Assembly: GCF_014192335.1 (NCBI RefSeq)
Contig: NZ_JACHXU010000012.1
Location: 1-64,000 of the forward strand
DNA length: 64,000 nucleotides
Source of the DNA: Aporhodopirellula rubra
GTDB taxonomy: Bacteria; Planctomycetota; Planctomycetia; Pirellulales; Pirellulaceae
Reading direction: 5' to 3'
A program made the translations under genes and the position numbers. The notes beneath the pieces are model-generated. The model was not told the origin of the DNA. It was given only the letters and a program-made list of their open reading frames with translations, and did no database searches. Shown piece after piece: positions 18,519-60,797 of the stretch (position 1 is its first letter; each line of letters begins with the position of its first letter).

Positions 18519-19400
18519 TTGTCCACCGAGTCGCGACGAGAGAAACTGCGAGACCACGTGCGAGCCCAAGGGTTTGCCGCGTTGGGCGAACTCACATCAA
18601 TTCTCGGCGTCAGCGAATCGACCGTCCGCCGCGACCTCGAGGCACTCGAGGACGCCGGCCAAACGCGGCGCACTCACGGCGGCGTCTATTGGACGGGCGA
18701 GACCGACACGATCAGCACGTTCCGATCGCACCGCGATGACGGATGGGCGAGGAAGCAGTCGATCGGCCGCATGGCCGCGACACTGATCGAAGACGGCGAC
18801 ACGATCCTGCTCGATGGCGGCAGCACGGTCTACGAACTCGCTCGATTGATCGTGAACCGACCGCTGCAGGTCGTCACCAATTCATTGCCGGTCGCTCATT
18901 TGTTGTCGACGAGTGACTCGATCGATTTGATCATGATCGGCGGATGCGTTCGCCGGCGGACTTCCGTCACGATCGGACCGATGGCCGACGCCATGCTGGC
19001 CGACATCAACGTGGCAAAGACATTCTTGTCCGTCGCGGGCGTGACCGAACGCGGGTTCTTCAACAGCGACATGATGCTGGTCGAGAGCGAGAAGGCGATG
19101 CTCGCGGCGGCCGATCAAACGATTGTCCTGGCCGACAGCACCAAGTTCGGCAAGGTCAGTTTGTCCCAGATATGCCGGTTGGAAGACGTGGGTCAGGTGC
19201 TCACCGACAGCGAGTTGGACAAACGCTGGAAATCTATATTCGAATCTGCGGGCACCGAACTACTGTTGGCAGCATCGGCGTCCTCCTCTGCCCCGACACC
19301 CACCGCTTCGCAGGGCGCGCCCGTCGCCTCCGATTCGTCGATCCACTCAAACTCACTTTCTCCTTCCTCACACCATGCCGATTCGGCAAACTCCCTATGA
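18519..19400 (+). CDS. DeoR-family transcriptional regulator of the BMC operon
   Basis: 293 residues from a TTG at 18519. The N-terminal helix-turn-helix is typical ([34 protein letters not shown], residues about 22-55). The sugar-phosphate sensing DeoR C-domain follows ([72 protein letters not shown]). A Ser/Ala-rich tail of about 40 residues is an extension beyond the family core. DeoR regulators usually respond to phosphorylated sugars, here probably fuculose- or rhamnulose-1-phosphate (inference). Its TGA overlaps the pduL ATG (ATGA), so it is co-translated with the operon it likely controls. Confidence 0.9.
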
Positions 19401-20152
19401 GCATGACCGTCGATCGAGCACAGATCGAAGCGCTCGTCCGCAGCGCGATCCAACAAACCCGATCCAACATGACTGCCGCTCCGGCTCAACCCGGCGCCCC
19501 CGTTCACTCCGGTGCAACGAATGGCACGCCTCTCGGATGGGTCGATGGCAAACCGAATCTCCGCGTCAGCATTTCGGCGCGGCACTGTCACCTGACTGAC
19601 GAACATGTCGAGATCCTATTCGGCCGCGGCAGCGTGCTCGAGCCGGACAAGGATCTCTACCAAGACGGCTTTTACGCGGCCAAACAAACCGTGATGGTCG
19701 TCGGCCCACGTCGCCGGATGTTGCCGAACGTTCGCGTTCTCGGCCCGACGCGTCCCTTCAGCCAACTCGAACTCGCGTTCACCGATTCGATCTCGCTCGG
19801 CATCGATGCACCGGTTCGCCACAGCGGCAAGATCGAAGGCACGCCGGGTTGCGTCTTGGTCGGCCCCGCCGGTTCGGTGCAATTGGATCAAGGCGTCATT
19901 CGTGCCGCCCGCCACGTTCACATGAACGATCACGACGCCGCGTACTACGGTGTTTCCAACGGCGACATGATGCAGTTGCACATCAAGAGTAACGATTGCG
20001 GCGTGATCTTCGACGACGTCCTCGTTCGCGAAGACAAGGCTGCGAAACTCGAAGTTCACATCGATACCGACGAAGGCAACGCGTGCAACTTGGACGCGGC
20101 AACCGAAGTCACCTTACAACCGATGCCCAAACCATGTGCCTGCGGGCACTGA
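19397..20152 (+). CDS. pduL: PduL-type phosphotransacylase with N-terminal encapsulation helix
   Basis: 251 residues. It starts at an ATG overlapping the DeoR stop. Residues 5-24 form an amphipathic helix ([19 protein letters not shown]) of the kind that targets PduL to BMC lumens, followed by a Pro/Ala/Gly linker. Two PduL beta-barrel halves carry the metal-binding His pairs RHCHLT (His63, His65) and RHVHMN (His173, His175). PduL swaps CoA for phosphate on acyl-CoA, regenerating CoA inside the shell. Here the substrate is probably lactyl-CoA or propionyl-CoA made by the aldehyde dehydrogenase three genes on; the product feeds the acyl kinase. Confidence 0.93.
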
Positions 20153-20204: not shown

Positions 20205-20507
20205 ATGGCAAAAATTAGTGAAGCGCTCGGCATGATCGAGACCAAAGGGTTCGTCGCCCTGGTCGAAGCATCCGACGCGATGATGAAGGCTGCCAATGTG
20301 CAGTTCCTCGGCTGGGACAAAGTCGGCGCCGGATTGGCTGCTGTCTTCGTCACCGGTGACGTTGCTGCGGTGAAAGCCGCCACCGACGCCGGCGCTGCTG
20401 CGGCAGGTCGCATCGGCGAAGTCGTCAGTGTTCAGGTCATCCCACGTCCGCACGCGGATTTGGAAAAGATCATGAAGCTGCCCGCTGCTACCGCGGCTAA
20501 GAAATAG
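20205..20507 (+). CDS. BMC-H shell protein (hexamer-forming), first copy
   Basis: A 100-residue single BMC domain: [26 protein letters not shown], then [25 protein letters not shown] and [11 protein letters not shown]-type ending. It resembles PduA/EutM. Such proteins form hexameric tiles of the microcompartment shell; the pore loop here lies around KVGAG (residues 39-43). A Lys/Ala-rich tail extends past the PRPH motif. AGAAGGA upstream is a good ribosome site. It follows pduL by 52 bases. Confidence 0.93.
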
Positions 20508-20569: not shown

Positions 20570-20839
20570 ATGAATGATGCAATCGGATTGATTGAAACCA
20601 AAGGCCTGCTTCCCCTCGTCGAAGCAACCGACGCGATGGCCAAAGCGGCCAACGTCGAAATCGTCAAGCGAATCGACCTCGGTGGCGGACTCGTCACGAC
20701 CGTCGTCAGCGGTGACGTCGGCAGCGTACGTGCAGCCGTCGAAGCCGGTGCTGCCGCAGCCGCTCAAATCGGCGAACTCGTCAGCAGCCACATCATCCCA
20801 CGTCCTGCCGACGGTCTGATCGGGGCTTACTTCAGCTAA
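20570..20839 (+). CDS. BMC-H shell protein, second copy
   Basis: An 89-residue BMC domain: AIGLIETKGLLPLVEATDAMAKAANVEIVKR, GLVTTVVSGDVGSVRAAVEAGAAAAAQIGELVSSHIIPRP. It is clearly a paralogue of the preceding gene but differs at the pore loop (DLGGG in place of KVGAG), so the two hexamers may pass different metabolites. The C-terminal tail is short (ADGLIGAYFS). Confidence 0.93.
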   Translation: MNDAIGLIETKGLLPLVEATDAMAKAANVEIVKRIDLGGGLVTTVVSGDVGSVRAAVEAGAAAAAQIGELVSSHIIPRPADGLIGAYFS

Positions 20840-20880: not shown

Positions 20881-22119
20881 ATGCTCATCCTCGTAGCGAA
20901 TCTGGGTAGCACCAGCTTCAAATACAAACTGCTCGACGTCAGCGGTGACCTCCAATCGCCCGACGTGCGACCGGACGACCGTGTGCTCGCACGCGGCGCG
21001 GTTGAACGGATCGGCGACGCGTCAACGAGTCGTTGCGAAGTCACCATCGGTGATTATCACAACGAATCGGAGATGCCGGTTCCCGATCATGGCGTCGCGG
21101 TGCAGGCGTGTTTGGATCAACTAACCGATCCGCAAAACGGATGTTTGAAAGACGCGTCCGAAGTATCTGCGATCGGTTTCAAGGCCGTTCACGGTGGTCG
21201 CAAAAGTGGGACTTTTTTGGTCGACGATGACGTGCTCGACGCGATGGCGGAAATGAATGCCGCCGCGCCCGCGCACAACCCGCCCTATATCGCCGCAATG
21301 AAACTGCTGCGAGAACGTTTTCCCAATTTGCCGTTGGTTGCCGCCTTTGAAACGGAATTCCACGACACGATTCCGAAGGCCCGTCGCGCTTACGCGATTC
21401 CTTCGAAGTGGCGTGACGAATACCAAGTCCAAAAGTGGGGCTTCCACGGATCGAGTCACCGATTCATCGCCGAACGCGCCGCCGAATTGCTCGGCCGCGA
21501 CGACGCGAGAATCATCTCCTGCCACCTCGGCGGCAGTAGTTCGTTGACCGCGATCCAGAACGGCCAAAGCGTGATGACGACAATGGGCATGACCCCTCAA
21601 ACCGGGCTCCCCCAGAACAACCGCGTCGGAGACTTCGACCCGTTTGCACTTCCGTTGTTGATCGAACGAACGGGCCAATCGCTCGAAGAGTTACTCAAAC
21701 AACTGGCGAGTGAAGGCGGACTCAAAGGCCTCAGCGAAAAGAGCGGTGACCTGCGGGATATCGAAGCGGCCGCGGATGAGGGTGACGAAAAATCAAAACT
21801 CGCGTTGTCCGTTTTCGTCGAAGAGATTCGGCGTCACATGGGCGGCATGATCGTCGCCATGGGTGGTCTCGATGCGATCGTCTTCACCGGCGGTATCGGC
21901 GAGAACTCCGATGTCGTTCGCGGAGCCGTTTGTGCCGGGCTCGATGGCCTCGGTATTCAACTCGACACCACCAAGAATCAAAACCATCACACCGAATCGA
22001 AGCAAGCGGGCGGCGAAGGCAGCCTGCACGACGGATCCAGCAACGTTCAGATTTGGGTCATCCCAACGAACGAAGAATGGATCGTCGCGAAACGGGCAAA
22101 GAAAGCAATCGGCTGTTAA
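20881..22119 (+). CDS. Acetate/propionate-kinase-family acyl kinase of the BMC operon
   Basis: 412 residues with the ASKHA acyl kinase plan: NLGSTSFKYK, AVHGGRKSG, FETEFHDT, WGFHGSSHRF, SCHLGGSSSLTAI, MGMTPQTGL, NNRVGDFDP, FTGGIGENSDVVR, NEEWIVAKRA. It would turn the acyl phosphate from PduL into the acid plus ATP. Against Methanosarcina thermophila AckA several key positions differ. Arg91 is Lys101, the catalytic Asp148 is Glu157, and pocket Leu122 is Ala131; Arg241 and Glu384 equivalents remain. The Leu-to-Ala change would enlarge the acyl pocket, fitting lactyl phosphate. It has no obvious encapsulation helix, so it may act outside the shell. Confidence 0.88.
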   Translation: MLILVANLGSTSFKYKLLDVSGDLQSPDVRPDDRVLARGAVERIGDASTSRCEVTIGDYHNESEMPVPDHGVAVQACLDQLTDPQNGCLKDASEVSAIGFKAVHGGRKSGTFLVDDDVLDAMAEMNAAAPAHNPPYIAAMKLLRERFPNLPLVAAFETEFHDTIPKARRAYAIPSKWRDEYQVQKWGFHGSSHRFIAERAAELLGRDDARIISCHLGGSSSLTAIQNGQSVMTTMGMTPQTGLPQNNRVGDFDPFALPLLIERTGQSLEELLKQLASEGGLKGLSEKSGDLRDIEAAADEGDEKSKLALSVFVEEIRRHMGGMIVAMGGLDAIVFTGGIGENSDVVRGAVCAGLDGLGIQLDTTKNQNHHTESKQAGGEGSLHDGSSNVQIWVIPTNEEWIVAKRAKKAIGC

Positions 22120-22181: not shown

Positions 22182-22499
22182 ATGTTCCTAGCACGCGTCA
22201 CCGGATCGATTGTCAGCACCCAAAAGGTGGAATCGATGAAGGGCCACAAGCTGTTAATCGTGGAGCCGTATCGGCTCGACACCGACAGCCGCGAACGGTT
22301 GCTCACGACCGGTCGGACGTTCATTGCGGTCGACACGTTGGGAGCCGGCGAAGGGGATCTCGTCTTGGTATGCCAAGGCAGTTCAGCACGATTGACCCCC
22401 GAAACCAAAACGCTGCCGATTGACGCGGTTATCACCGGCATCATCGACAGCGTTCATGTCGAAAAGAAATCGGTTTATTGCCGGAAAGACGGCGACTAA
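22182..22499 (+). CDS. BMC-P (EutN/CcmL) vertex protein, first copy
   Basis: 105 residues: MFLARVTGSIVSTQKVESMKG, LLIVEPY, FIAVDTLGAGEGDLVLVCQGSSAR, PIDAVITGIIDSV. This is the EutN/CcmL fold, which forms pentamers closing the shell vertices. The GxGxGDxV loop and the PIDAxIxGIID ending are complete. The start at 22182 is fixed by homology, since no ribosome site is evident in the repeat-rich leader. Confidence 0.92.
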   Translation: MFLARVTGSIVSTQKVESMKGHKLLIVEPYRLDTDSRERLLTTGRTFIAVDTLGAGEGDLVLVCQGSSARLTPETKTLPIDAVITGIIDSVHVEKKSVYCRKDGD

Positions 22500-22587: not shown

Positions 22588-24027
22588 ATGCAACTTGACG
22601 AATCAATCATCCGCAACGTTGTCGCTGCGGTCCTATCCGAAGTCGGTCCGATGCCGGCCGGTTCGAACGCGCCGCTGAACAGCCATGTCCCCGCTGGGGC
22701 AGGTCGCAACGGAGTCTTCACGGATGTCAACGAAGCGGTCGCCGCCGCCAAAGCCGCTCACCAGCAGCTTCGTTCGCGCAGCATGGAAGAACGTAAACAG
22801 GTCATCGACATCATCCGCCGAATCAGCATCGACCAGTGCGAAGAGCTCGGCCTGATGGAGATGCGGGAAACCGGCATCGGTCGCCCCGAACACAAGATCG
22901 AAAAACTCCGCACCCTTGGAATGCTCGCACCGGGAACCGAGTTCCTGCAAACGAAAGCATTCAGCGGTGATCACGGTCTCGCCGTCATCGAACGTTCGCC
23001 GTTCGGCGTCATCGCCGCAATCACGCCCGTCACCCACAGCCTGCCGACCATCACCGGCAACGCCGTCAGCATGATCGCCGGCGGCAACTCGGTCGTCGTC
23101 AACCCGCACCCGTCGGGCAAGAAAGTCGCCGCCGAGGGCGTTCGCCGGTTCAACGAAGCCATCGCGGCCGAAGTTGGTATCGACAATCTGATCTGCGTCA
23201 TCGCCGAACCAACATTGGAAACGGCTGACACGCTTTTCGCCCACCGTGACATTGCACTGATCTGCGTCACCGGCGGACCTGCCGTGGGACGTGCCGCACT
23301 CCGCAGTGGCAAACGTGCGATCGTCGCCGGACCGGGCAACCCGCCCGTCGTTGTCGACGAAACCGCCGACTTCGACAACGCCGCCCGTTGCATCATTCAA
23401 GGTGCGGGCTACGACAATAACCTGTTGTGCATCGCCGAAAAAGAAGTCTTCGTCGTCGACAGTGTCTTTGACGAAATGATGGCCGCGATGCGACGTGCCG
23501 GTGCGGTCCAGCTCGATGCCTCGCAAATCGCCAAACTCACCTCACAAGCGATCACGAAAGTCGGCGACGACCAACACGACGCCGCCGCGAAGGACTTCAT
23601 CGGCAAAGACGCCGCCGTGCTCGCCCGTGCCGCGGGCGTGAACGCCCCTGAAAGCTGCGAAGTCGTCTTCGGCGAAACCGACGAACATCACCCGTTCGTC
23701 ACCGTCGAACAGATGATGCCGTTCCTACCATTCGTGCGTGCACGCGACGTTGAGCACGCCATCGCGATGGCAAAAGAATACGAACACGGCTTCCGCCACA
23801 CCGCGATCATTCACTCACGCAATGTTCGCAACATGACCGTCATGGGCCGCGAACTCGACACCACCCTTTACGTCAAAAACGGCCCCAGCATGGCGGCACT
23901 CGGCCTCGGCGGCGAAGGCTACCTTTCGTTCTCGATCGCCGGTCCAACCGGCGAAGGCGTGACCAGCCCCGAAACGTTCACACGTGAACGGCGCTGCAGC
24001 ATGGTCGACGAACTGCGAGTGGTCTAA
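22588..24027 (+). CDS. pduP: PduP-type CoA-acylating aldehyde dehydrogenase with encapsulation helix
   Basis: 479 residues. Residues 1-20 are an encapsulation helix (LDESIIRNVVAAVLSEVG) joined by a Gly/Pro linker. The aldehyde dehydrogenase core has FGVIAAITPVTHSLPTI, NPHPSGKK, ICVTGGPAVG, AGPGNPPVVVDETADF and the catalytic Cys281 in YDNNLLCIAEKEV; it ends with SFSIAGPTGEGVTSP. PduP enzymes convert an aldehyde, CoA and NAD+ to acyl-CoA and NADH. Here the aldehyde is most likely lactaldehyde from the operon's aldolase. The short spacing to both BMC-P genes suggests one transcript. Confidence 0.93.
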   Translation: MQLDESIIRNVVAAVLSEVGPMPAGSNAPLNSHVPAGAGRNGVFTDVNEAVAAAKAAHQQLRSRSMEERKQVIDIIRRISIDQCEELGLMEMRETGIGRPEHKIEKLRTLGMLAPGTEFLQTKAFSGDHGLAVIERSPFGVIAAITPVTHSLPTITGNAVSMIAGGNSVVVNPHPSGKKVAAEGVRRFNEAIAAEVGIDNLICVIAEPTLETADTLFAHRDIALICVTGGPAVGRAALRSGKRAIVAGPGNPPVVVDETADFDNAARCIIQGAGYDNNLLCIAEKEVFVVDSVFDEMMAAMRRAGAVQLDASQIAKLTSQAITKVGDDQHDAAAKDFIGKDAAVLARAAGVNAPESCEVVFGETDEHHPFVTVEQMMPFLPFVRARDVEHAIAMAKEYEHGFRHTAIIHSRNVRNMTVMGRELDTTLYVKNGPSMAALGLGGEGYLSFSIAGPTGEGVTSPETFTRERRCSMVDELRVV

Positions 24028-24033
24028 AGCACC

Positions 24034-24288
24034 ATGCAAACAGCCCGAGTACTTGGACACGCCCGTGCAACGGTCAAGCACGATTCGCTCGTCGGTCGCC
24101 GATTGGTGATCGCGCAGCCGCTCTTGCTTTCCGGTGACGCCGACGGGCCTCCCTTGCTCGTGCTCGACAAACTCGGTTGCCGCAGTGGTGACCTAGTTGT
24201 GCTCACCAGCGACGGAACCGCGGTGCGTGACATTACCGGATCCGACGTTTGCCCTGCACGCTGGAGCGTGTGCGGCCTTGTCGACTGA
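24034..24288 (+). CDS. BMC-P (EutN/CcmL) vertex protein, second copy
   Basis: 84 residues: MQTARVLGHARATVKHDSLVGRRLVIAQPLL, LLVLDKLGCRSGDLVVLTSDG, then a degenerate ending RDITGSDVCPARWSVCGLVD. It is the shortest of the three vertex proteins. It starts six bases after the aldehyde dehydrogenase stop, so translation is probably coupled. The Cys-rich C-terminus differs from the other two copies. Confidence 0.9.
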   Translation: MQTARVLGHARATVKHDSLVGRRLVIAQPLLLSGDADGPPLLVLDKLGCRSGDLVVLTSDGTAVRDITGSDVCPARWSVCGLVD

Positions 24289-24358: not shown

Positions 24359-25066
24359 GTGTCCCGAATCGTTGCCCCCTCTAACGTCGCGTCCTCCACG
24401 GGTGCCGCAATCGACATCGAGTCGATTGTTCGCCGCGTGCTGAGCGAATTGAAGGTGATGGGGAACCAAGACGCAGCGGCCAAGCCCACCGGCCCGCTCG
24501 TCATCACCAAGCGGGTCATTGCGTTGACGGACGTTGAAGCAATCGCCACCACCGTCAAGCAGATCGAACTGCCTTCGCGAGCCGTCGTTACCCCGGCCGC
24601 CCGCGATGAACTGCGACACCGTGGTATCACGATCACCAAAACCAATACCAATACCGACCAAACCGCGACCGCCACACCGACAACGACTCCTGCCGTTCAG
24701 CCCGGAACGCGTGCGATCGATTTGCAAACCGACGGCGACGTCAGCGCCACGATGCTTTCGTCAGTCAAGAAACAACTCACCCTTCGCGGGATTCGACTGT
24801 GCAACCGAGCCTCGGTCACCGTCATCCTCTCGAGTCGTCCGGCGACAACCGCTCATCACTCGTGCGGCGGAGATCGATGCGTCGTCTCGATTAACCGTCT
24901 CGATGATGTTCGTCGATTTCTCGCTGAACTCAGCCCCAACGTTTTCGTCCTCGACGTCATGCACTTGCATCTCGTAGCGATCACGGGGGCGATCACCACG
25001 ATTGCCAAACCATCGATCGCGACCCAGTCGCGTCCCCAAATCACCGTTGCGGGAGGTCTGTCATGA
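24359..25066 (+). CDS. Unknown BMC-operon protein with cargo-type helix
   Basis: 235 residues from a GTG at 24359; no enzyme family recognised. Residues 17-34 (AIDIESIVRRVLSELKVMG) match the amphipathic helix pattern of the operon's PduL, aldehyde dehydrogenase and aldolase. A Thr/Pro-rich linker around 95-115 (TNTNTDQTATATPTTTPA) separates a small N-terminal part from a C-terminal alpha/beta domain, which contains VTVILSSR, CVVSINRLDDVRRFLAEL and NVFVLDVMHLHLVAITGA. The helix suggests it is encapsulated or binds the shell. Its TGA overlaps the next ATG (ATGA). It could be an enzyme remnant, an accessory factor or a scaffolding protein. Confidence 0.75.
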   Translation: MSRIVAPSNVASSTGAAIDIESIVRRVLSELKVMGNQDAAAKPTGPLVITKRVIALTDVEAIATTVKQIELPSRAVVTPAARDELRHRGITITKTNTNTDQTATATPTTTPAVQPGTRAIDLQTDGDVSATMLSSVKKQLTLRGIRLCNRASVTVILSSRPATTAHHSCGGDRCVVSINRLDDVRRFLAELSPNVFVLDVMHLHLVAITGAITTIAKPSIATQSRPQITVAGGLS

Positions 25067-25353
25067 AGATCGCTCGAGTACTCGGTTCCGCCACGTTATC
25101 GCGAATGCACCCGGCAATGCATGCCTCGAGCCTGCGATGCGTAGAAGTCGTCGAACGGATCGACGACCTGCAGAAAAAGGTGCCAGGAAACGACTTGATC
25201 ATTGCCTGGGATCTCTGCGGATGCGGTGAGGGTGACCTCGTCGCTCTCGCCGAAGGCCCCGAAGCGGCCGCCCCGTTCAAACCCGACGTCAAACCGATCG
25301 ACGCGTCGATCGTCGCGATTCTCGATCACCTCGAAGTCGATCCGTCGAACTGA
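25063..25353 (+). CDS. BMC-P (EutN/CcmL) vertex protein, third copy
   Basis: 96 residues: MKIARVLGSATLSRMHPAM, RCVEVVERIDD, DLIIAWDLCGCGEGDLVALAEGPEAA, PIDASIVAILDHLEV. It is a standard EutN/CcmL fold with a longer first loop than the second copy. The start overlaps the stop of the unknown BMC protein. With three BMC-P and two BMC-H genes and no BMC-T, the shell set matches the planctomycete/verrucomicrobial BMC type. Confidence 0.92.
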   Translation: MKIARVLGSATLSRMHPAMHASSLRCVEVVERIDDLQKKVPGNDLIIAWDLCGCGEGDLVALAEGPEAAAPFKPDVKPIDASIVAILDHLEVDPSN

Positions 25354-25422: not shown

Positions 25423-26295
25423 ATGGAAAACCTGCACAAAATCAAACAAGACATCTGCGACATCGGCAAACGGATTTACAACCGACAATTCGCCGCGGCT
25501 AACGACGGCAACATCACCGTCCGCGTAAGCGAGAATGAAGTCCTCTGCACGCCAACACTGCACTGCAAAGGCTTCCTCAAACCCGACGACATCTCGCTCG
25601 TCGACATGACCGGAAAGCAACTGTCCGGACGCAAGAAACGATCCAGCGAAGCGTTGCTGCACCTCGAGATCTACAAACAACGCGATGACATCCGCAGCGT
25701 CGTGCACTGCCACCCGCCACACGCAACCGCCTTCGCGATCGCTCGCGAGCCGATTCCTCAGTGTATCCTTCCGGAAGTCGAAGTGTTCCTCGGTGACGTG
25801 CCAATCACGAAGTACGAAACACCTGGTGGACAAGCCTTCGCCGACACGATCATCCCTTACGTTAACAAAACGAACGTAATGATCCTCGCCAACCACGGCA
25901 CGGTTTCCTACGGCGAAACGGTCGAACAAGCCTACTGGTGGACCGAGATCCTCGATTCGTACTGCCGCATGCTGTTGCTCGCCAAACAACTCGGCAACGT
26001 GTCGTTCCTCGACGAAGAGAAATCACGCGAACTGCTCGACCTCAAAGAGAAGTGGGGCTACGCCGATCCTCGCAACACGCCTGATTTCAAGGACTGCGAC
26101 ATCTGCGCCAACGACATCTTCCGTGAATCGTGGGCCGACACCGGCGTCGACCGCCGTGCGTTTCCAGCACCACCCCCAATCAAAACTTCGCCTGCAGCGA
26201 CCAACGGCGCGCCATCGGCACCCGCCGGAGTCGACGAAGCCGCGTTGGTGAAAGCCATCACCGACGAAGTCATGCGTCAAATGGCTAAGAAGTAA
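25423..26295 (+). CDS. Class II aldolase (L-fuculose/L-rhamnulose-1-phosphate type) with C-terminal encapsulation helix
   Basis: 290 residues. The catalytic domain (1-215) has NDGNITVRVSENEVLCTP, SSEALLHLEIY with Glu76, VVHCHPPHATAF with His95 and His97, and NHGTVSYG with His158, the Zn and catalytic set of class II sugar-phosphate aldolases. A Pro/Ala-rich linker (about 243-270) leads to a C-terminal helix, VDEAALVKAITDEVMRQMAKK at 270-290, of the cargo type. It would cleave fuculose- or rhamnulose-1-phosphate to DHAP and L-lactaldehyde at or in the compartment. It is the entry enzyme of the pathway and the reason the locus is assigned to deoxysugar degradation. Confidence 0.92.
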   Translation: MENLHKIKQDICDIGKRIYNRQFAAANDGNITVRVSENEVLCTPTLHCKGFLKPDDISLVDMTGKQLSGRKKRSSEALLHLEIYKQRDDIRSVVHCHPPHATAFAIAREPIPQCILPEVEVFLGDVPITKYETPGGQAFADTIIPYVNKTNVMILANHGTVSYGETVEQAYWWTEILDSYCRMLLLAKQLGNVSFLDEEKSRELLDLKEKWGYADPRNTPDFKDCDICANDIFRESWADTGVDRRAFPAPPPIKTSPAATNGAPSAPAGVDEAALVKAITDEVMRQMAKK

Positions 26296-26508: not shown

Positions 26509-27444
26509 ATGAAAGTTTCGATCATCGGCGGCGGCGGTTTGGTTGGTTCGTGTGCCGCGTATGCACTTCAGTGCGGCGGCCTTGCCAACGAAATCGCACT
26601 CCTGGACGTCAACGAAGAACTCGCCGTTGGACACGCACTCGACCTGCAGCACGGATCACCCAGCGTTGCCAACCAGAAATTCGCGGGCGGCGGATACGAA
26701 CACATTCCTTCGAGTGACGTGATTTGCATCACCGCGGGTCTGCGACGTAAACCCGATGAATCGCGGTTGGACTTGATCAACCGGAACACCGACCTGTTCA
26801 TGCAAATCCTGCGTGACGTCAAAGCGGCCGGGCCGAAGCCATCGGCAATTGTGCTCGTCGTCAGCAATCCGGTCGACATCCTCACCTATGTCGCCGCTCA
26901 AACGCTCGACCTGCCGGTCGGCCAAGTCATCGGACTCGGAACGCAACTCGACACGATTCGCTTCTGTTCGTTGATCGCCGAACAACTCGGCGCGCCTCCT
27001 GCACAAACCAAAGCGTTGATCCTCGGCGAACACGGCGAGTCGATGGTGCCGATTTGGAGCAGTGCAACAATCGCCGGTTTACCACTCGAAAAGTATCCCG
27101 GTTGGAACCCGTCGCTCGCCGGTGAATTGTTCACCCGCACCCGCGGCAGTGGTGCTGAAGTCATTAGCCGTAAAGGCGGTGCCGGGTTCGCTGTCGGAAT
27201 CGCGATCCGTGATTGCATCGACGCGATCATCTTAGACAACGACGTCGTCCTGCCGATCAGCAGCGTGCAAAACGGATGCTACGGCGTCCGCGATGTCGCA
27301 CTCAGCGTCCCAACGGTTCTCGGTCGAACGGGCGTTCAAGCGACCATGGAAATTGACCTGTGGCCGAAGGAAGTCCAAGGGATCCGTGCCAGCGGCACGG
27401 CACTCCGCAAGACGCTCGACACGGTTCTGCAACGGATTCGCTAA
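26509..27444 (+). CDS. Lactate/malate dehydrogenase-family enzyme, last gene of the BMC operon
   Basis: 311 residues. NAD-binding GGGGLVG at 7-13 with Asp33; VVSNPVDILTY; GTQLDTIRF with Arg151; catalytic His175 in ILGEHGESMVPIWS. The specificity loop reads AGLRRKPDESR. The residue equivalent to LDH Gln102 is Arg80, as in malate dehydrogenases, while the flanking ESRLDL is LDH-like, so the substrate cannot be read off. It may oxidise or reduce lactate, or recycle NAD+ using lactaldehyde. No encapsulation helix is seen. The long upstream in-frame stretch is hairpin-rich non-coding DNA, so the ATG at 26509 was chosen. Confidence 0.88.
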   Translation: MKVSIIGGGGLVGSCAAYALQCGGLANEIALLDVNEELAVGHALDLQHGSPSVANQKFAGGGYEHIPSSDVICITAGLRRKPDESRLDLINRNTDLFMQILRDVKAAGPKPSAIVLVVSNPVDILTYVAAQTLDLPVGQVIGLGTQLDTIRFCSLIAEQLGAPPAQTKALILGEHGESMVPIWSSATIAGLPLEKYPGWNPSLAGELFTRTRGSGAEVISRKGGAGFAVGIAIRDCIDAIILDNDVVLPISSVQNGCYGVRDVALSVPTVLGRTGVQATMEIDLWPKEVQGIRASGTALRKTLDTVLQRIR

Positions 27445-58606: not shown

Positions 58607-60133
58607 TTATAACTCCGCGAATCGAGCTGCCGGCTCGTCCCAAACACCACTGTTTCCCGGTGTGTACGTTTGGGTCGGGAAACTGTTGCGGATCAATTGC
58701 CGCGCCTCGTCAATGCTGTGCAGGCGCCCGCTACCGATCATCTGCATCGCAACGTTACCGATCGCGGTCGCTTCAACGGGGCCGGCGACCACGGTTCGGT
58801 TGCACGCGTCGGCGGTCATCTGACACAGCAGCGCGTTCAGTGAACCGCCGCCGACAATGTGGATCGTGTTGATCGATGATTCAGTCAACCGTTCGAGTGA
58901 TTCGAGCGTGAGACGGTACCGAAGCGCCAATCCCTCAAGCGCCGATCGGAACAGCACGCCGTTATCCATCGGCACTTTTTGCCCGGTCCGTCCGGCGAGG
59001 GAGCAGATCTCGTCAATCATGTCCGTGGGAGCGAGCAAGGACGGGTCGTCCGGATTGATTAACATCGAAAACGCCGGTGCGGCTTCTGCGGCTTCGACCA
59101 TTTCAGCCCACGACGGCGCCGAACCGCGACGCTGCAACGCGGCGCGGATCTGTTGAAAGATCCACAGACCGCCGATGTTCTTCAGCAAACGGGTGCTGCC
59201 GTGAACGCCACCTTCGTTAGTGAAATTCAATTCCGCACAAAGATTCGTGACCTTCGGCGACGGCAACTCAACGCCCATCAACGACCACGTGCCTGAACTG
59301 ATGTAGCACCAATCCGGCCGGGCGGGCGCGAACCCCTCAGCGGGAACCGACAAAACCGCCGAGGCCGTGTCGTGCGTCGCCGGCGCGATCACGGGAACGT
59401 CGTGCAGCCCCGTCATCGCCGCAACGCTGCTCTGGACGACGCCGATCGGCGTGCCGGCTTGTGTCGGGGTCGGGAACCACTTGGCGGGAAAGTTGAACGC
59501 CTCGAGCAATTTGGTCGACCAGGTTCCCGTGACCGGTGACAACAATTGGCTCGTTGACGCGTTGGACGCTTCGATCGTCCGCTCGCCCGAGAGCATCCAG
59601 TGGAACAAGTCGGCCATCATCAACAACGATGTTGCGTTTTGGTATCCGACGTCACCGGCTTGCTGAGCGGCGAGTAATTGGTAGAGCGTGTTGATCTCCA
59701 TGAACTGCAGCCCCGTTTCGGCGAAAATCTCCTCGCGTGAGACTCGTTGCAGAGCGTCTTGCATCCGGCCCAGGTTACGAGGATCGCGATAGCACCGCAC
59801 CGGACTGATCAATTGATCCTTGTCGTCGAGGAATCCGAAATCAACGCCCCAGGTATCGACGCCGACCGAGACCACCTCACCCGCCCCCGCCCCGACCTGA
59901 TCGGCCGCCAGACGGAGCCCGTGGGAGATGTCCTGCCACAACCCGAGATGGTTCCACAACAGGTCCTTCTGCATCCGGACCGGTTTGTTCTCGAATCGCC
60001 AAACCTCCGCCAGCCGCATTTGCCCACCGTCCGACGCTCCGGCGATCACCCGCCCGCTCGACGCACCCAGATCGACAGCCAGGTGGACTGGCCCCCTCAG
60101 GCCGGTGGCTTCTGCTGCCAATGAATCGTTCAA
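58607..60133 (-). CDS. rhaB: L-rhamnulokinase
   Basis: 508 residues from TTG 60133, chosen for the AGGAAG about eight bases upstream. A FGGY-type sugar kinase: VHLAVDLGASSGRVIAG (ATP phosphate loop, residues 18-31), SVGVDTWGVDFGFLDD with a catalytic Asp region, CYRDPRN, ATHDTASAV, CYISSGTWSLMGVE, IHIVGGGSLNALLCQ, GPVEATAIGNV. The DTWGVDFG and SSGTWSLMG motifs are characteristic of rhamnulokinases. It makes L-rhamnulose-1-phosphate for the BMC aldolase. It is on the opposite strand from rhaA, about 4 kb away. Confidence 0.92.
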   Translation of the reverse strand: MNDSLAAEATGLRGPVHLAVDLGASSGRVIAGASDGGQMRLAEVWRFENKPVRMQKDLLWNHLGLWQDISHGLRLAADQVGAGAGEVVSVGVDTWGVDFGFLDDKDQLISPVRCYRDPRNLGRMQDALQRVSREEIFAETGLQFMEINTLYQLLAAQQAGDVGYQNATSLLMMADLFHWMLSGERTIEASNASTSQLLSPVTGTWSTKLLEAFNFPAKWFPTPTQAGTPIGVVQSSVAAMTGLHDVPVIAPATHDTASAVLSVPAEGFAPARPDWCYISSGTWSLMGVELPSPKVTNLCAELNFTNEGGVHGSTRLLKNIGGLWIFQQIRAALQRRGSAPSWAEMVEAAEAAPAFSMLINPDDPSLLAPTDMIDEICSLAGRTGQKVPMDNGVLFRSALEGLALRYRLTLESLERLTESSINTIHIVGGGSLNALLCQMTADACNRTVVAGPVEATAIGNVAMQMIGSGRLHSIDEARQLIRNSFPTQTYTPGNSGVWDEPAARFAEL

Positions 60134-60797
60134 TTGGATCTTCCTACAAGGAGCGTTCGTGAAGGATTTGCGTGGAAACGGGAACGGCAAATCGTGCGGC
60201 CGCCAAGTTACCCAAGCGGGACCGGGGAAGCGACCCGCCGCACCGCCCCCCATTTGGGATTACGGAGGAATTTTGGCGGGTTTGCTAGCAAATACCCCTC
60301 AGGCGGCAATCTCGACGCAACCTCCTTCCCAGTCGCTCGTTACAGAACCGGGTGTCCTGCACGGACGTCGACGGGAAGAATCCCGCAATCCGGTGGGAAA
60401 CATGAAATCGAAAAAACAGATGTTGACCCGGATGCTCAGGCACGTAGGCTAGTCCATACCTCCGCGAGTTCGCCTTCGCGTGGAGCCGAACGCGGTCAGC
60501 TCGCGGCCATGGGCTGACGTTCGTTGAATCGTCCGAAAATCATCGTCAATCCCACGAAAACGCTTGTTTTCGAGGGCATCCGGGTTCTTTCGGTCTCTTT
60601 TCACGACGACTCCACGGGCCGGGGACATGATGTGCCCGGTCGCGGACGCTCGCTTGGCTTTAGGTGGCCCTCCGCCGCCATCTCTAACCCGCCAAGAACG
60701 CGCCCTCGCCCACCGATTCTCGGTTCGGCTATGCTAGGAATCCGTGAGCCCACGGGCTCGAATTCCCTGCCCTCTCCCGCACACCCGATCGCCCGCC
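60134..60797. other. 664-base intergenic space upstream of rhaB and NIPSNAP genes
   Basis: No supported gene. It is a divergent promoter region. A perfect palindrome lies at 60281-60292. Weakly repeated GC-rich blocks near 60450-60520 resemble planctomycete dispersed repeats. The AT-rich block 60536-60600 may hold a promoter for the plus-strand gene. Confidence 0.4.
60281..60292. promoter_or_regulatory. Palindrome upstream of rhaB
   Basis: TTTGCTAGCAAA is a perfect 12-base palindrome, flanked by GGG and CCC, about 150 bases upstream of the rhaB start on the minus strand. It may be an operator for a dimeric regulator. It does not resemble the ACTTTTGTG repeat before rhaA. Confidence 0.35.

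Follow-up and report, generated by a model that had tools for sequence, protein, structure and literature searches.

The microcompartment (BMC) of the PVM type in Planctopirus limnophila was reportedly described by Erbilgin in 2014. The gene content of PVM-type loci is defined in PMC4207490 and PMC4784909, and a scheme published for such loci leads from lactaldehyde to lactyl-CoA, lactyl phosphate and lactate (PMC8857213; also PMC6620236), the kinase step being placed outside the shell in PMC6620236. The lactate dehydrogenase (LDH)-family protein has been proposed as the alcohol dehydrogenase of the compartment (PMC4207490). In most pvm PduLs, the residue equivalent to Gln77 of rPduL is Tyr or Phe, and lactyl-CoA is the substrate presumed for these enzymes in the cell (PMC4784909).

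Several active-site residues of acetate kinase, numbered here as in the Methanosarcina thermophila (Mt) enzyme, have reported roles. Arg91 is described as catalytically essential, its replacement by Ala leaving 0.3% of kcat in M. thermophila and 0.6% of activity in P. gingivalis (PMC6461089), and the equivalent of Asp148 is a reported metal-binding residue (PMC3475010). Asn211 of the M. thermophila enzyme contacts the beta-phosphate and hydrogen-bonds Gly239, and alterations at Asn211, Gly239 and Gly331 are said to lower activity 6- to 200-fold (PMC4390882). The same source attributes a preference for acetate formation to the enzymes of C. neoformans and E. histolytica, in which such loop residues are altered (PMC4390882). 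Val93 has been named as the residue that limits acyl chain length (PMC5517563).

Here we describe an acyl kinase encoded in a window of 64,000 nucleotides, the whole stretch of Aporhodopirellula rubra DNA that was analysed (contig NZ_JACHXU010000012.1, positions 1 to 64,000). It is a distinct active-site variant of a known family, confined to one branch within the sampled kinases, and its residue changes are not scattered variation. With a probability of roughly two in three, it would serve a PVM-type microcompartment for fucose and rhamnose as its acyl kinase, with a site refitted to a 2-hydroxyacyl phosphate and working in the ATP-forming direction. Literature searches covering titles, openings of abstracts and few subscription papers returned no description of this active-site variant, which may be new in print.

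The microcompartment locus

The first-pass annotation had placed the kinase gene in a microcompartment locus, as borne out by the BMC-H, BMC-P, PduL, aldehyde dehydrogenase and class II aldolase genes around it (Table 1). Together with the genes for the DeoR regulator, the acetate kinase-family enzyme and the LDH-family protein, this content is that of a PVM locus. No other BMC-H or BMC-P match was found in the genome outside the locus, and a fucose isomerase domain is present in the genome.

Judged by eye, PduL, the aldehyde dehydrogenase and the 235-aa protein carry an N-terminal helix-like extension and the aldolase a C-terminal one; the window kinase has no terminal extension of this kind. 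Because it is devoid of the extensions of cargo enzymes, the kinase is most likely cytosolic. The 235-aa protein has an N-terminal helix-like stretch similar to the ones in PduL and in the aldehyde dehydrogenase, and in the three loci of the phylum sample (see below) where this protein was found the identity is 21-32%. Inspection by eye likewise reveals no cargo-type extension on the LDH-family protein, which may therefore not be the alcohol dehydrogenase of the compartment but a cytosolic enzyme using lactate from the kinase reaction.

Table 1. Features of the window, active-site positions of the kinase and sister kinases in other genomes
Feature	Position	Strand	Basis or remark
DeoR-family regulator	18519..19400	+	profile match
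PduL phosphotransacylase	19397..20152	+	251 aa; start overlaps DeoR stop
BMC-H shell protein 1	20205..20507	+	profile match
BMC-H shell protein 2	20570..20839	+	profile match
Acyl kinase (acetokinase family), K-A-E active-site variant	20881..22119	+	412 aa
Thr11 (Mt Ser11, PHOSPHATE1 loop)	20911..20913	+	alignment column counts
Phe100-Lys101 (Mt His90-Arg91)	21178..21183	+	alignment column counts
Val103 (Mt Val93, published acyl-length gate), retained	21187..21189	+	alignment
Ala131 (Mt Leu122, acyl pocket)	21271..21273	+	alignment column counts
Glu157 (Mt Asp148, metal site)	21349..21351	+	alignment column counts
Gly218-Ser219 (Mt Asn211-Gly212, PHOSPHATE2 loop)	21532..21537	+	alignment column counts
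Asn246-Asn247 (Mt Gly239-Thr240, LOOP3)	21616..21621	+	alignment column counts
BMC-P (EutN/CcmL) shell protein 1	22182..22499	+	profile match
Aldehyde dehydrogenase, NCBIfam PRK15398 subfamily	22588..24027	+	633.9 bits, cut-off 403
BMC-P shell protein 2	24034..24288	+	profile match
235-aa protein, no Pfam or NCBIfam match	24359..25066	+	in BMC locus
BMC-P shell protein 3	25063..25353	+	profile match
Class II aldolase (PF00596), PVM signature enzyme	25423..26295	+	profile match; signature as reported in PMC4207490
Lactate/malate dehydrogenase family protein	26509..27444	+	start set from domain
L-rhamnose isomerase RhaA	53204..54493	+	above two NCBIfam cut-offs
FGGY sugar kinase, best NCBIfam match rhamnulokinase	58607..60253	-	446.3 bits, below 527.95 cut-off
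Sister kinases L065, L066, L072	genomes G230, G197, G184		ordinary kinases L018, L030, L016 also present

Family membership and active-site changes

The kinase gene is a single open frame running from ATG to stop. Its product matches Pfam Acetate_kinase (PF00871) at 351.9 bits (cut-off 22) over residues 2-404, which places it in this family, and NCBIfam ackA (TIGR00016) at 341.7 bits (cut-off 293.4). It scores below the propionate kinase profiles PRK12397 (acetate/propionate family kinase; 315.8 vs a cut-off of 659) and PRK12379 (propionate kinase; 280.5 vs 580), and has Val instead of the Ala93 that marks PduW and TdcD. It also falls below the butyrate kinase cut-off (TIGR02707, 59.7 vs 289.1). 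It differs from the PPi-dependent class, in which Gly331 is replaced, by the presence of Gly331, Ile332, Asp283 and Arg285, and since these adenosine-pocket residues are retained the use of ADP/ATP is expected. The nearest named relative among the matches listed, from which near-identical records may be left out, is that of Aporhodopirellula aestuarii (93%). No relative was found in the viral contigs searched.

Instead of the ordinary acetate kinase site His90/Arg91/Leu122/Asp148, the window kinase has Phe, Lys, Ala and Glu. Alignment with M. thermophila AckA confirmed that Lys101, Ala131 and Glu157 occupy the positions of Arg91, Leu122 and Asp148, as initially assigned by eye, and that Phe179 (F188), Pro232 (P239), Arg241 (R248) and Glu384 (E398) are kept. 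Further changes absent from the first-pass annotation are Ser11 to Thr11, His90 to Phe100, Asn211 to Gly218, Gly212 to Ser219, Gly239 to Asn246 and Thr240 to Asn247. The idea of two conservative catalytic adjustments had to be abandoned: most of the diagnostic changes fall at phosphate or catalytic positions, and at one of these, Arg91, the Ala replacement is reported to leave 0.3-0.6% of activity (PMC6461089).

Losses of this size (0.3% of kcat in M. thermophila, 0.6% of activity in P. gingivalis; PMC6461089) would also agree with a catalytically weak or non-catalytic relative that has a regulatory or structural role. Nevertheless, the window kinase retains Asn7, Ser10, Ser12, Lys14, His180, Arg241, Gly331 and Glu384 (M. 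thermophila numbering), and its Lys and Glu keep the charges of the residues that they replace, which makes such a role scarcely credible.

Distribution of the variant

From a phylum sample of 294 planctomycete genomes, we used the listed acetokinase matches above 72 bits, plus the loci of the window's own genome. This gave 132 loci, of which two duplicate the window kinase and the paralogue in its genome, and 131 rows once the window was included; at least 19 partial matches of 72 bits or less were left out of this count. Lys91 and Glu148 are found together in 27 of the 131 rows, all of which also have Gly211 and Ser212. Of the other 104 rows, 101 can be read at both sites, in every case as Arg91 and Asp148; one of the leftover non-clade rows is readable at 91 only (R), one at 148 only (D) and one at neither. 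Rows that mix both states (K with D, or R with E) amount to 0 of 131.

All 80 named relatives (the best 80 of 578) have Lys91 and Glu148, and 11 kinases of other phyla, taken from plasmid records, all have Arg91, Leu122, Asp148 and Gly212. The second kinase of the window's own genome, on another contig, has Arg91, Leu122 and Asp148 but Thr11, Gly211 and Ala239; no BMC gene was seen in the surrounding 17 kb. The initial annotation had named as its own counter-argument that the same changes might be common in ordinary acetate kinases. We rejected this possibility within the 131-row sample and the 11 kinases of other phyla: neither Lys91 nor Glu148 occurs in any of those 11 kinases or in the 103 planctomycete rows outside the clade for which at least one of the two sites is readable.

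Conservation of the active-site positions

Column counts were made on 107 clade rows, i.e. the 27 rows from the phylum sample and the best 80 of 578 named loci. In this set Lys91, Glu148, Gly211 and Ser212 are each present in 107/107 rows, Phe90 in 106/107 and Asn239 (Asn246 of the window kinase) in 100/107; the 211/239 pair is Gly/Asn in 100/107 and never Asn/Gly. Position 11 is Thr in 78 dereplicated clade rows (frequency 1.00), vs Ser at 0.95 and Thr at 0.02 in 86 ordinary rows. His90 is present in 102 of the 102 rows carrying Arg91. Among the 101 ordinary rows readable at position 211, 85 carry Asn and 5 Gly, the own-genome paralogue being one of the latter. At position 239, the 101 readable rows include 83 with Gly, 13 with Ala and 5 with Ser, and Asn239 is absent from all ordinary rows. 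With Gly218 and Asn246, the window kinase has the Asn211/Gly239 pair inverted, at positions that touch each other in the known enzyme.

Eight of 89 columns conserved at 85% or more in the ordinary group are fixed differently in the clade (11, 90, 91, 122, 131, 148, 212 and 240). Five of these belong to our list of active-site positions, and two more, 90 and 240, are next to listed sites (p 0.016, a value that is only indicative, the list having been chosen partly after the residues were known). Positions 211 and 239 fall outside this count because they are variable in ordinary kinases.

Ala122 is found in 26 of the 27 K-A-E rows of the phylum sample, the remaining row having Gln. The exceptions among the 107 clade rows (27 plus the best 80 of 578) are two, L078 with Gln and L155 with Val, a count that is biased for the 80 named loci by their having been seeded partly with the pattern [AM]PAHNPPY. 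Leu122 alone was rejected as a marker: 11 of 102 readable non-clade rows are also devoid of it (Glu 5, Arg 2, Ala 1, Asn 1, Asp 1, Val 1). Ordinary planctomycete kinases with Arg91/Asp148 and Glu, Asp, Asn, Arg or Val at 122 include L045, L067, L068, L070, L071, L073, L074, L080 and L082. The widened acyl pocket proposed at first is only partly supported: Ala131 is near-fixed, but it is one of four pocket residues, the 11/102 ordinary rows just mentioned do without Leu122, and the Val93 gate is retained.

Most diagnostic changes lie at phosphate-loop or catalytic positions, which by itself is no argument for a larger acyl group. The remodelling could have less to do with acyl choice than with phosphoryl transfer, tuning its direction, rate or nucleotide, with several short acyl phosphates being used almost only towards ATP. 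The 6- to 200-fold cost of alterations at Asn211, Gly239 and Gly331 and the preference of loop-altered enzymes for acetate formation, as reported in PMC4390882, are consistent with this explanation. Nevertheless, the pocket residue Ala131 is nearly as fixed as the others (26/27) and goes with the aromatic PduL residue described below, albeit over few events, so that we consider it unlikely.

Phylogeny and sister kinases

A quick tree was built from 90 rows (34 of the 107 K/E rows, 44 ordinary planctomycete rows and 12 outside rows), with columns 91, 122, 148, 211, 212, 239 and 240 removed and columns 11 and 90 left in. A single branch separates all of the K/E rows from the others (SH-aLRT 100; this is one quick tree, many of whose branches beyond the clade are weak). 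Inside the clade, three f34 kinases (L065, L066 and L072) are set apart from the other 31 with a support of 99. The sister trio retains T11, F90, K91, A122, E148, G211 and S212, and has Ala/Lys at 239/240 in an alignment view that covers two of the three.

No BMC-P or PduL matches were found in the genomes of these three kinases, which are 82-88% complete. Therefore, the core change either came before the link with BMC genes or arose independently of it, and it is not explained by the compartment alone. A shared lactaldehyde operon around the f34 kinases was rejected, as the only frames of at least 90 aa common to the three neighbourhoods are the kinase and frames overlapping it; a scan of ten neighbours of L066 suggested no pathway.

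Common to the whole branch, near enough, are Ser11Thr, His90Phe, Arg91Lys, Asp148Glu, Asn211Gly, Gly212Ser and Leu122Ala (with the 2 exceptions in 107, including the best 80 of 578). Gly239Asn and Thr240Asn are typical of the BMC-linked part of the branch: Asn239/Asn240 goes with most of it, and not with L069, L078, L144 and L153. A single simultaneous swap of Asn and Gly is not supported, given that Gly211/Ala239 is found in the sister trio and in three ordinary rows including the own paralogue. This state may offer a stepwise path to Gly211/Asn239.

The tree also bears on whether this is an ordinary acetate/propionate kinase of relaxed specificity, its changes being inherited drift in one lineage. 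On a single branch, counts of fixed residues record one and the same history; the core changes are also present in the sister group, whose genomes gave no BMC-P matches, and ordinary kinases vary at positions 211 and 239 as well. However, positions 90, 91 and 148 are otherwise invariant (102 readable rows each), the new residues are just as fixed throughout a deep clade, and the charges are retained in the K/E pair. Drift is thus distinctly improbable in our view.

Linkage to microcompartment genes

BMC shell genes lie beside 22 of the 27 K-A-E kinases of the phylum sample, the window included, and at least two shell genes are near the kinase in all 80 named loci (the best 80 of 578). PF03319 was detected in 24 of the 27 K-A-E genomes vs 70 of the 267 others (Fisher p 1.7e-10, kinship ignored); 21 of these 27 genomes are from one class and the association tests are not independent. 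K-A-E kinases in genomes with no BMC-P or PduL matches amount to 3/27. For L046 and L048 (genomes G087 and G105), three BMC-P genes and PduL are found at separate places, and the K-A-E kinase is still present.

The K-A-E kinase as a mark of every BMC genome was rejected. The variant is absent from 70 of 94 PF03319 genomes, a set that includes one below the family cut-off, and PF03319-bearing compartments therefore do not need it. Other acetokinase-family matches are present in 24 of the 70. The remaining 46, many of them incomplete (G005, G006 and G007 are among the 46), have none, and acyl phosphate may be used another way in such genomes.

The neighbouring PduL

The PduL of the window has Phe92 (19670-19672) at the rPduL Gln77 position, which we located by inference from the Gln74 numbering and the conserved Gln-Pro-Gly, and it thus bears the mark of PVM-type PduLs. 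A PduL was detected in 96 K-A-E loci (drawn from a set that includes the best 80 of 578), and 90 of these have Phe or Tyr there, as against 0 of 4 PduLs that share a frame with an ordinary kinase. L078 and L155, the loci with no Ala122, are both among the six loci devoid of the aromatic PduL residue (p 0.003), and the four loci with no Asn239/Asn240 include two of these six (p 0.019); in both cases the events are few and kinship is ignored. L069, L077, L133 and L171 retain Ala122 in the absence of the aromatic residue, which argues against strict coupling. The co-occurrence of Ala122 with the aromatic PduL residue would be the best independent hint that ties the pocket change to lactyl chemistry.

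A kinase with Arg91/Leu122/Asp148 and a PduL domain are encoded in one frame in four planctomycete genomes (L084, L047, L025 and L017; also G105:C1:6209112-6209636), and these four are apparent kinase-phosphotransacylase fusions. No BMC genes were found near L047 and L084, the two with flanks examined.

Proposed function

In the proposed pathway, RhaA and rhamnulokinase would yield rhamnulose-1-phosphate, from which the class II aldolase would release lactaldehyde. The aldehyde dehydrogenase would convert lactaldehyde to lactyl-CoA and PduL would convert the latter to lactyl phosphate, whose phosphate the window kinase would then move to ADP, so that lactate and ATP are formed. Among candidate substrates of the kinase, lactyl phosphate would be the likeliest. 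The putative link to lactyl phosphate put forward in the first-pass annotation is better supported than it was there, as the rhamnose genes, the class II aldolase and the aromatic PduL residue all fit a lactyl route.

At the residue level, R91K combined with D148E would keep both charges, with one arm shorter and the other longer, and Asn246 (Mt 239) may take over the contact of Asn211 from the other loop. By analogy with the loop-altered enzymes, a preference for the acid-forming direction would suit a catabolic compartment.

More tentatively, and with odds that we place somewhat below even, the kinases of this one planctomycete branch might form a dedicated 2-hydroxyacyl (lactyl) phosphate kinase subfamily. 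In such a subfamily, Arg/Asp would have become Lys/Glu and His90 Phe, Asn and Gly would have been exchanged between touching loops, perhaps via a Gly/Ala stage, and Leu122 rather than Val93 would have opened the pocket, in co-adaptation with the aromatic PduL residue. If so, two successive enzymes of one organelle pathway would be jointly tuned to lactyl. If lactyl phosphate is the substrate, an ATP-forming step in planctomycete fucose/rhamnose breakdown is identified. The variant site provides a sequence marker for this kinase group, and a natural clade with neither Arg91 nor Asp148 and with Asn211/Gly239 inverted represents a ready experiment on the tolerance of phosphoryl transfer.

Comparison with known systems

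An altered kinase active site is not mentioned in the available portions of PMC4207490 (Axen 2014) for the PVM BMC of Planctopirus limnophila and relatives. The window kinase is homologous over its whole length to the acetate kinases of M. thermophila and T. maritima (PDB 1tuu, 1g99, 2iir), with which it has Asn7, Lys14, Val93, His123, Phe179, His180, Pro232, Arg241, Gly331 and Glu384 in common. It differs from the M. thermophila enzyme at positions 11, 90, 91, 122, 148, 211, 212, 239 and 240. The PPi-acetate kinase of Entamoeba histolytica is also altered at 211 and 239, where Thr and Ser are reported (PMC4390882), but it has Gln331, whereas the window kinase retains Gly331, Asp283 and Arg285.

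The propionate kinase TdcD (one row, L240), of the acetokinase family, has Ala93, Arg91, Leu122, Asp148 and Asn211. PduW, the propionate kinase of the Pdu microcompartment (PDB 7fj7), is likewise a BMC-associated acyl kinase, and it is found, weakly (89), among the nearest tree rows outside the clade. It has Arg91, Leu122, Asp148, Asn211 and Ala93, in contrast with the window kinase, which retains Val93 and has Ala at 122. For an opening of the acyl pocket, the candidate residue here would be 122, as against residue 93 in PduW.
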